From: Thomasclavelia cocleata
GTDB taxonomy: Bacteria > Bacillota_I > Bacilli_A > Erysipelotrichales > Coprobacillaceae
DNA: 64,000 nt
Direction: 5' to 3'
Assembly (NCBI RefSeq): GCF_900102365.1
Contig: NZ_FOIN01000009.1
Location: 1-64,000, forward strand
Shown: positions 60,688 through 62,830 of the stretch, in pieces
Position numbering within the stretch: the stretch's first letter is position 1
Layout of the letters: the number at the start of each line of letters is the position of its first letter
Program-made: the position numbers and the translations under genes
Notes under the pieces: generated by a model
What the model was told of the DNA's origin: nothing
Seen by the model: the letters and a program-made list of their open reading frames with translations, nothing else
The model's database searches: none

Positions 60688-60709
60688 AAAAAAGCGCAAT
60701 GCGCTTTTT
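60688..60709. terminator. terminator of the GTPase pair (bidirectional)
   Basis: AAAAAGCGC (60689-60697) and GCGCTTTTT (60701-60709) form a perfect stem with loop AAT, covering the stop of the minus-strand gene. Confidence 0.9.
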
Positions 60710-61649
60710 AGTCAAAAGTTACATATTCATTTTTTAATGGAGAGACAACATTTAAATTTTCAACAGTTAGAACGGGAATGTTAATTTGATATTCTTGATC
60801 AAGAACAGTTGAAACTTTACCTTTTACCACGATCCATTCATCAGGAATTAGTTTTTTAGCTAGTTTACTAATACAAACTAGACCAATCAATGATGTATCC
60901 TCTTCACAACAAACCATAGCTTGTCTACCTAAAACAAAACCATCTTCAATAACTCTATCTAATCCAATAAACTTTCCCTTTATTTTAATTGTTTTATCAT
61001 TATACTTCTCAGGATGATCCATTACATCCATACAAAAAATACCAAAATCATGATCTTTAATCTCTAAATAATCTTTTTGTATATCATAAGGTAATTCTAC
61101 TTCAGGATGCATTGTATCAATAGTGCCATTAGGAAATTCATAAATTATTTGGGTATTACTGTTTATTGCTTTTATATTATTTCTTAACATTGATTTTTTA
61201 ATGTTTTGATTATAACGATTAAAAATGACAAGATCACTAAATATAACTTGTCCATATACTAATGAACGCATATTATTTAAATACATTGAAAAGGTTGTAG
61301 CATCAAAGGTTGTTAAAACTTGAACAACTTTCCAATTTTCTGGAATAATTTCTTTAACAAAAATATTTAGATCCATCATTCCATTGGCTTCAATCATAAT
61401 TTGTGTAGGATGATATTCTAATTCTAGGTGCTTTAAATCGTATGTAGTAAAGTTTTCGTAATCTAAAGTAGCTAGTGAAGTATTAGATTTTTTTAAATAT
61501 ACTTTATCATAAGAAATTTCACCACTTTCAAAACTTATTAATAAAGTATCCTCATCACTATAAAAGTCAGGATTCATCAAAGTATCATTTATGAACGAAG
61601 TTTTACCACTATCTAAAAAACCTGCAAAAATATATACTCTTGTTTCCAT
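60708..61649 (-). CDS. CobW/COG0523-type GTPase fused to a TIGR03943-like domain
   Basis: The 313-aa protein starts with a P-loop VYIFAGFLDSGKTSFI as in CobW/COG0523 GTPases, but it has no CxCC motif (LISFESGEISYD instead) and only NRYN in place of NKxD. From about residue 205 the sequence (FGIFCMDVMDHPEKYNDKTI, IKGKFIG..., GRQAMVCCEEDTSLIGLVC, DEWIVVKGKV) matches the C-terminal domain of TIGR03943/DUF1980 membrane proteins that accompany metal-responsive permeases, including the CC pair. Its ATG overlaps the stop of the other GTPase gene by one base, so both act together, probably in zinc allocation. Confidence 0.8.
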   Translation of the reverse strand: METRVYIFAGFLDSGKTSFINDTLMNPDFYSDEDTLLISFESGEISYDKVYLKKSNTSLATLDYENFTTYDLKHLELEYHPTQIMIEANGMMDLNIFVKEIIPENWKVVQVLTTFDATTFSMYLNNMRSLVYGQVIFSDLVIFNRYNQNIKKSMLRNNIKAINSNTQIIYEFPNGTIDTMHPEVELPYDIQKDYLEIKDHDFGIFCMDVMDHPEKYNDKTIKIKGKFIGLDRVIEDGFVLGRQAMVCCEEDTSLIGLVCISKLAKKLIPDEWIVVKGKVSTVLDQEYQINIPVLTVENLNVVSPLKNEYVTFD

Positions 61650-62635
61650 TAAGCAACCTCATCAAATAAATTATTTAATTTTTGTTCATCTAACTTTTCA
61701 CCAATTATACAAATTTGACCAGTAAAATTGGCTTTTCCTATACGAATCTCATATTCCCCTGGAACTAGGTCAAAATACAACCAATTATTTTCAAAACTAT
61801 CTACATAGCCTTTAGCCCTTAGAATATTTCCATAGTTTGAATTCTCACTAAGTTTTTTTAAGATTGTCTCTAATTGAATTTTAGTATATTTTTTTGGTGT
61901 TTGTTTACTCCAGCTAGTAAATATTTCATCTGCATGATGATGTTCATGTTTGCATTTATGATTATGGTGGTGTTCATGATTATGATTGTGACCACACTCA
62001 GGACAAATATCTAATTCATTGAACAATTGGTTACGAAGATTATCACTATGATCAAAAGCAGCAACTAATGTTTCTTGGGTTAATTGATTCCAAGTGGTTG
62101 TAATTATATTGGCTTTATTGTTATGTTCTTTAATTATTTTAATACATTCATTAAGTTGAAATTCTGTTATATCTTCAGTTCTGCTTAAAATAATTAATGA
62201 GGCATATTTGATTTGATTATTAAAAAATTCACCAAAGTTTTTAGTATATAGACGACATTTTTTAGCATCAATTACAGTCATATGATTGTCAAGTGATAGT
62301 TCATCACTATTAACTTCATTTACAGCTTTTATTACATCAGATAATTTACCTACTCCAGAAGGTTCAATAATAATACGGTCAGGATGATACTTTTCAATAA
62401 CTTCCACTAACGAAGTTTCAAAATCATCTACAAGACTGCAACAGATACATCCAGAGTTGATTTCAGTTATTTCGATTCCAGAATCATGCATAAATGTTCC
62501 ATCGATTCCAATTTCACCAAATTCATTTTCAATCAATACAATTTGTTCATCAAGATATATTTCTTTAATTAATTTTTTTATAAAAGTTGTTTTTCCAGCT
62601 CCAAGAAAACCAGATATGATATCTACTTTTATCAT
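61649..62635 (-). CDS. CobW/COG0523 metal-chaperone GTPase with His-rich loop
   Basis: The 328-aa GTPase has the P-loop SGFLGAGKTTFIKKL, Walker-B-side IENEFGEIGIDG, the metal-binding GCICCS (Cys63, Cys65, Cys66) and EPSGVGKL. SRTED (151-155) stands where NKxD guanine specificity is expected. A His/Cys-rich segment (211-234, CPECGHNHNH then EHHHNHKCKHEHHH) lies before the CobW C-terminal domain. These proteins move zinc to client enzymes under zinc limitation. No Zur box was recognised upstream, and no zinc transporter is adjacent. Confidence 0.88.
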   Translation of the reverse strand: MIKVDIISGFLGAGKTTFIKKLIKEIYLDEQIVLIENEFGEIGIDGTFMHDSGIEITEINSGCICCSLVDDFETSLVEVIEKYHPDRIIIEPSGVGKLSDVIKAVNEVNSDELSLDNHMTVIDAKKCRLYTKNFGEFFNNQIKYASLIILSRTEDITEFQLNECIKIIKEHNNKANIITTTWNQLTQETLVAAFDHSDNLRNQLFNELDICPECGHNHNHEHHHNHKCKHEHHHADEIFTSWSKQTPKKYTKIQLETILKKLSENSNYGNILRAKGYVDSFENNWLYFDLVPGEYEIRIGKANFTGQICIIGEKLDEQKLNNLFDEVA

Positions 62636-62830
62636 CTAATTCATCTCCTATCTAAGATATTATAACATTAAGTTTTTTATGGTTCAAATATTGAAGTTGT
62701 TAAAATTATTACCATTATTTAAAAAACTAGAACAAAATTAATTCTATATTAAACAGATTTTTAAAATATGACAAGAATAGTAACATAACTCAAAATATGT
62801 TAGAATATAAGGTATAGAGGAGGAATATTT

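Follow-up and report, generated by a model that had tools for sequence, protein, structure and literature searches.

A stretch of 64,000 nucleotides from the Thomasclavelia cocleata genome (the window) carries, at positions 60708-62635, two adjacent genes that a preliminary description had taken for paired CobW-type GTPases, possibly forming a two-part zinc transfer complex. The COG0523 proteins known so far are stand-alone proteins bearing a CxCC motif; here the putative metal motifs are redistributed over a fixed pair, found at no fewer than 80 loci. Both reading frames were confirmed in place, each with a match to the cobW profile, and the layout around them is as follows:

61649..62635, minus strand: ORF1, 328 aa, CobW/COG0523-type G3E GTPase (partner subunit); cobW 7.6e-39, CobW_C 2e-6
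60708..61649, minus strand: ORF2, 313 aa, divergent G3E GTPase with DUF1980_C; cobW 7.2e-10, DUF1980_C 6.5e-20; AlphaFold2 mean pLDDT 88.5
61649..61651, minus strand: TAATG overlap of the ORF1 stop and the ORF2 start, with one base (61649) in common
62659..62687, minus strand: candidate promoter of the pair, just 5' of ORF1; TTGAAC, 17 nt, and TATAAT preceded by TG
60689..60709, minus strand: terminator-like stem-loop across the ORF2 stop, its 9 bp stem running out into a series of U; -9.5 kcal/mol, z -3.4

The shared base, the promoter-like site, the closing stem with its U run and the divergent orientation of the gene upstream of the pair point, by sequence, to a two-gene operon. Independent expression of the two genes had been named beforehand as an outcome contrary to the proposal; the layout predicts a single transcription unit instead. 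A similar promoter-like site was recognized by eye upstream of the pairs of relatives in the genus, and promoter-like sites across the whole region showed no enrichment (16 found vs. 18.1 expected). A consensus terminator scan called none at the 3' stem-loop of the pair, and comparison with plasmid DNA gave no matches.

ORF1 scored above the curated cut-offs for both of its domains (cobW, 133.6 vs. 20.7 bits; CobW_C, 28 vs. 22 bits), and its closest solved relative by sequence was E. coli YjiA (1nij, 1.2e-19). A Walker A motif (GFLGAGKTT) and the Walker B glutamate (IIIEPSG) are both present, together with the CxCC motif and the His-rich loop already attributed to the upstream GTPase in the preliminary description:

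62438..62452, minus strand: GCICC (CxCC) metal motif of ORF1, residues 62-66; in 17/17 aligned partners
61925..62005, minus strand: His/Cys-rich loop of ORF1, residues 211-237; length strongly variable among relatives
62171..62185, minus strand: G4-like SRTED of ORF1, residues 151-155; SR[TS][QE]D in 16/17 aligned partners

The 17 aligned partners contained between 16 and 47 histidines per whole protein. The structural model of ORF1 had a mean pLDDT of 72.9, with values below 50 at residues 39-44, 51-70 and 219-237, stretches into which the region of the CxCC and the greater part of the His loop fall. An intact NKxD is absent from ORF1, which has SRTED at this place, the relatives having SR[TS]QD; among the partners, S151 was kept in 17/17 and R152, Q154 and D155 in 16/17 each. 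In the excerpted text of Haas 2009 (PMC2770081), G3E proteins are characterized by the Walker B glutamate and an intact NKxD, and COG0523 proteins by CxCC; judged by its motifs against these excerpts, ORF1 is a COG0523 protein with an altered G4.

In the NCBIfam comparisons, ORF1 remained below the cut-offs for ZigA (69.7 vs. 600) and CobW (TIGR02475, 106 vs. 332.1 bits), and no CobN (PF02514) was found in the T. cocleata genome. A true cobalamin-synthesis CobW was ruled out by this sub-cut-off TIGR02475 score and the lack of CobN. The genome holds six cobW matches, among which only ORF1 and ORF2 look COG0523-like, the other four reading as FtsY, Ffh, Der and Era.

ORF2 combines a cobW domain (residues 5-168; 39.2 bits vs. 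a cut-off of 20.7) with a second, C-terminal domain. Conservation was followed in an alignment of 58 fusions, comprising the window, 12 of 30 loci (L008-L037) and 45 of 80 loci (L039-L118), and the following features were located:

61596..61622, minus strand: P-loop of ORF2, residues 10-18; G10, F11, L12, S14, G15 and K16 in 58/58, D/E at 13 and T/S at 17
61380..61400, minus strand: Walker B region of ORF2 with Glu87, residues 84-90; E87, N89 and G90 in 58/58
61209..61223, minus strand: G4-like FNRYN of ORF2, residues 143-147; N144 and R145 in 58/58
60720..61085, minus strand: DUF1980_C of ORF2, residues 189-310, predicted OB-like fold; 6.5e-20, 71.7 bits vs. a gathering score of 25.9
60897..60917, minus strand: MVCCEED of ORF2, residues 245-251, candidate metal site Cys247-Cys248..Asp251; kept in 58/58 fusions

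Both cobW and DUF1980_C were matched at E <= 0.001 in all 58 aligned fusions, so the fusion is not due to chance. The residues C247, C248, D251 and W272 were likewise found in 58/58, and residue 206 was Cys in 13 and Tyr in the other 45. The downstream GTPase had been described as lacking CxCC; indeed, none of the 58 aligned fusions has this motif in its first 120 residues (0/58), and by the excerpted criteria of PMC2770081 ORF2 is, on its motifs, G3E-like and devoid of the CxCC of COG0523. Its NKxD is not intact (NRYN), the Asp position being variable and occupied by Asp in 19/58 fusions. The two G4 sequences, SRTED and NRYN, had thus been quoted correctly as abnormal, but they turned out to be conserved family versions and not marks of decay. 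With key residues kept among the aligned partners for the one and among the aligned fusions for the other, both motifs are, as far as the alignments tell, stable family variants with Arg in place of Lys, and a reading of the pair as decayed GTPases was ruled out by this conservation in relatives.

In fold comparisons, the best alignments of model residues 1-185 of ORF2 were with HypB (2wsm, Z 14.4) and YjiA (1nij, Z 13.4), and residues 193-302 aligned with archaeal MCM (1ltl; Z 10.4, rmsd 2.9, 95 aligned). SSB proteins were also returned by Foldseek, and the OB-like match of DUF1980_C was taken from these searches with whole ORF2. The C-terminal domain had been called TIGR03943-like, with the lack of any significant match set down as evidence against it. 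A strong DUF1980_C match was obtained, also for residues 205-313 alone (2.7e-18), but the likeness to TIGR03943 concerns its C-terminal part and not the whole. ORF2 reached 64.8 bits against the TIGR03943 cut-off of 88.8 and covered only positions 108-221 of the 221 in the profile; two of six scanned relatives passed the cut-off (95.2 and 89.5 bits), over positions 94-220 and 94-219 only. The TIGR03943 permease-linked membrane proteins (DUF1980 plus DUF1980_C), of the B. subtilis YcgQ type, share with ORF2 a DUF1980_C with CC..D. However, no match to the N-terminal DUF1980 was detected in ORF2 and no permease gene adjoins it, the genome's only PF03773 match lying on another contig (C32). A whole TIGR03943 permease subunit was ruled out, since only the C-terminal half of the profile matches.

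Matches to ORF2 were found in 47 of 60 relatives' genomes. A broader scan of genome contigs, with patterns from both halves, retrieved at least 586 relatives, not all of them confirmed fusions; 80 were kept, the fusion being present at all 80 loci, and the record titles of these loci were mostly Erysipelotrichaceae, Lachnospiraceae and other Clostridia. In profile-based counts over three locus sets that overlap in genomes, the gene immediately upstream of the fusion, on its strand, was the partner in 30/30, 76/80 and 31/31 fusion-holding loci. The last set corresponds to 33 class/phylum loci minus L163, which is cut at a contig end, and L190, which encodes a permease-type protein. A stricter earlier count had given 65/80 where the profile gave 76/80, and of the four remaining misses, two are explained by the end of a contig and the other two show the partner by eye, one of these with an apparent interruption of its frame in the His tract. 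Occurrence across whole genomes followed the same trend: the fusion profile matched in 33 of 198 class genomes (28 at >= 200 bits) and the partner profile in 40 of 198 (28 at >= 185 bits, the next best at 132.5 bits), and, with thresholds set after inspection of the score lists, the genomes with a strong fusion and those with a strong partner were the identical 28 of 198. The pairing of ORF1 and ORF2 looks obligate. Such an interruption is seen at L104:2378-3617, where the partner frame seems broken within its His-rich tract, by an assembly error or a real repeat change.

In a phylogenetic tree, 20 of 20 sampled fusions formed a single clade (100/99), apart from 25 partners and six other COG0523 proteins, the latter being those that passed the CxCC filter out of 16 regions with other cobW matches. 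The fusion clade sits on a long branch that drew a long-branch warning, and support for the partner group was 75/97. An origin of ORF2 as a recent duplicate of ORF1 was unsupported, as the fusions form a separate clade, although the long branch, the 75/97 support and the CxCC-filtered sampling bear on this result.

The C-terminal domain also occurs in other settings. DUF1980_C was matched in 62 of 392 genomes, seven of which, with odd frame sizes or second matches, were inspected individually. At six loci, a DUF1980_C lipoprotein is encoded directly after znuA-znuC-znuB:

L157:5566-6123: DUF1980_C lipoprotein
L158:5493-6038: DUF1980_C lipoprotein
L159:5089-5631: DUF1980_C lipoprotein
L160:4721-5248: DUF1980_C lipoprotein
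L162:5069-5641: DUF1980_C lipoprotein
L180:5941-6573: DUF1980_C lipoprotein

A Fur-family gene precedes znuA in four of these six loci. Pfam confirmed FUR, ZnuA, ABC_tran, ABC-3 and DUF1980_C at L157, and ZinT as an additional domain of ZnuA at L180 (Subdoligranulum); at L158, L159, L160, L162 and L180, the other transporter genes were assigned from sequence similarity, and the lipobox was recognized by eye. These lipoproteins resemble ORF2 in the domain, in CC..D and in a similar C-terminal end, but have a lipobox-type N-terminus in place of the GTPase domain. A third setting is next to permeases: in Priestia and Pontibacillus records, a DUF1980_C protein annotated as TIGR03943 adjoins a permease, and at L161 a similar protein lies beside an ArsP_1 permease. 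Across 13 rows drawn from the fusion, lipoprotein and membrane forms, C247, C248, D251 and W272 were the sole invariant columns. Lipoprotein and pair are separable, as one genome (G055) has the lipoprotein without the fusion and T. cocleata shows the reverse.

The proposed two-part zinc transfer complex was supported in part. A metal transfer unit fits the operon layout, the tight pairing, the CxCC/His loop and the CCxxD, and zinc gains support from the lipoprotein encoded after znuA-znuC-znuB; no sign of metal-responsive regulation and no Zur box were found. Our reading leans towards a two-subunit cytoplasmic metallochaperone, with zinc as the most likely metal, preferred mainly because DUF1980_C, with its invariant CC..D, recurs after znuA-znuC-znuB. 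The CxCC and the His/Cys-rich loop of ORF1 would collect the metal, and binding and hydrolysis of GTP would gate its release from ORF1, although the altered NKxD of both subunits argues, at the level of motifs, against assuming GTP specificity. ORF2, which keeps the P-loop and the Walker B glutamate, would use the Cys-Cys-x-x-Asp of DUF1980_C, instead of a CxCC, to take over, sense or pass the metal, with transfer presumably running between the subunits in one direction or the other. By analogy with HypB, UreG and the SRP GTPases, the two subunits would most likely pair through their G domains as a heterodimer. HypB and UreG are nucleotide-gated metal proteins, acting on nickel as homodimers; among solved structures they rank with those nearest in fold to the ORF2 G domain, but they have no DUF1980_C. 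Compared with the COG0523 proteins YciC/ZagA, ZigA and YjiA, the likeness comprises the P-loop, Walker B glutamate, CxCC, CobW_C and His-rich loop of ORF1 and the G3E-like fold of ORF2, whereas the differences lie in the two linked genes, the second without CxCC and with DUF1980_C, in the altered G4 and in the failure to find a Zur box.

More tentatively, DUF1980_C might be an unrecognised zinc-binding OB-like domain that acts at successive zinc-handling steps (the ZnuABC lipoprotein, the permease partner and the cytoplasmic GTPase), and the pair an obligate hetero-GTPase whose metal sites are split between CxCC/His loop and Cys-Cys-Asp; this wider proposal is possible rather than probable. 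Literature searches found no description of a split-site hetero-GTPase architecture for G3E metallochaperones. If true, metal hand-over could be traced between separable proteins, and DUF1980_C, an unnamed domain, would gain a testable function.

The same two-subunit arrangement could serve nickel, cobalt, iron or manganese instead, and the solved structures whose fold is most like that of the G domain in ORF2, namely HypB structures (one with zinc) and YjiA, would be in keeping with this, as would the failure to find a zinc-responsive site upstream of the pair. Among the G3E relatives, HypB and UreG serve nickel and CobW serves cobalt, and His-rich loops are also found in the nickel protein HypB, so that such a loop agrees with another metal too. 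Nevertheless, the genome has no CobN, none of its six cobW-family matches reads as HypB or UreG, and DUF1980_C recurs after znuA-znuC-znuB, which makes another metal rather unlikely. A role of ORF2 as a regulatory partner and not a metal carrier, with a G domain that only dimerises with ORF1 and an OB-like domain that binds RNA, tRNA or a protein client, appears unlikely: it would accord with the OB-type matches to SSB and MCM proteins, with a tRNA_anti-codon match below threshold (0.033 when the domain is taken by itself) and with tgt as the next gene in 6/80 loci, but only Cys, Cys, Asp and Trp are kept in all three settings of the domain, and in one of these settings the domain belongs to an exported lipoprotein, which is unlikely to bind nucleic acids.

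The neighbourhood of tgt also suggests a dedicated chaperone that metallates the queuosine enzymes TGT or QueH, TGT being a zinc enzyme. At 10 of the 80 loci (L042-L045, L049, L051-L053, L055 and L056), the pair is followed on its own strand by tgt-queA-queH, as identified with Pfam. In six of these, tgt is the adjacent gene, no more than 97 bases off, and in the remaining four a distance of 0.55 to 4.25 kb separates it from the pair. However, the fusions at these ten loci are closely related, with 48-55% identity to ORF2, and may reflect one ancestral gene order, so the association is a lead only; moreover, L058 has tgt on the opposite strand at a distance of 5.2 kb, and in the window the pair does not adjoin these genes. 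We regard this specialised role as very unlikely. In general, the neighbours of the pair were mixed across loci, common ones being limited to tgt-queA-queH in near relatives.

Returning to the zinc metallochaperone reading, control by Zur was assessed separately. No Zur box was detected upstream of the pair in the window and 15 relatives, the best site having 4/14 mismatches to a Bacillus-type consensus that may not fit this class. No Fur, ZnuB or separate ZnuA turned up near the pair in single-sequence searches of the 80 and 12 further pair loci, many of which extend for less than 10 kb on either side; eight weak ZnuA matches at the position of the partner gene were read as matches to its His-rich loop, and 38 ZnuC matches near pairs as other ABC proteins. 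The T. cocleata genome yielded no ZnuA, and its sole above-cut-off Fur-family gene, beside a rubrerythrin-like gene, looks PerR-like, which together render Zur control doubtful here. The zinc gene set of this genome is in itself unusual, with two ZIP-type genes, a single Fur-family match above cut-off and no ZnuA.

The two-gene unit is real and conserved, and its function is unstudied as far as the searches show. No paper found in the literature searches joins COG0523 with DUF1980 or mentions TIGR03943; any of DUF1980, COG3689, PF09323, PF21537 and TIGR03943 was present in just two papers of the literature searched, and the passages retrieved that mention DUF1980 or COG3689 give no function. 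The available portion of the ZepA paper (PMC10957091) contains no DUF1980, and in that of PMC9508795 COG0523 appears once, in the reference list. The annotation of the pair in a Vescimonas record goes no further than "CobW family GTP-binding protein" and "GTP-binding protein", and, since some fusions pass the TIGR03943 cut-off by its C-terminal half, some may carry that name in databases. Proteins of this type also appear under phage entries: three faecal "Bacteriophage sp." records (MT835785, MT835561 and MT838432) encode a protein resembling the whole fusion at 34-38% identity and are probably bacterial contigs filed as phage, and two Listeria phage records (OR848279 and OR846789) match the DUF1980_C part only (residues 190-310; 25% identity, E 6e-4), at the end of the record.
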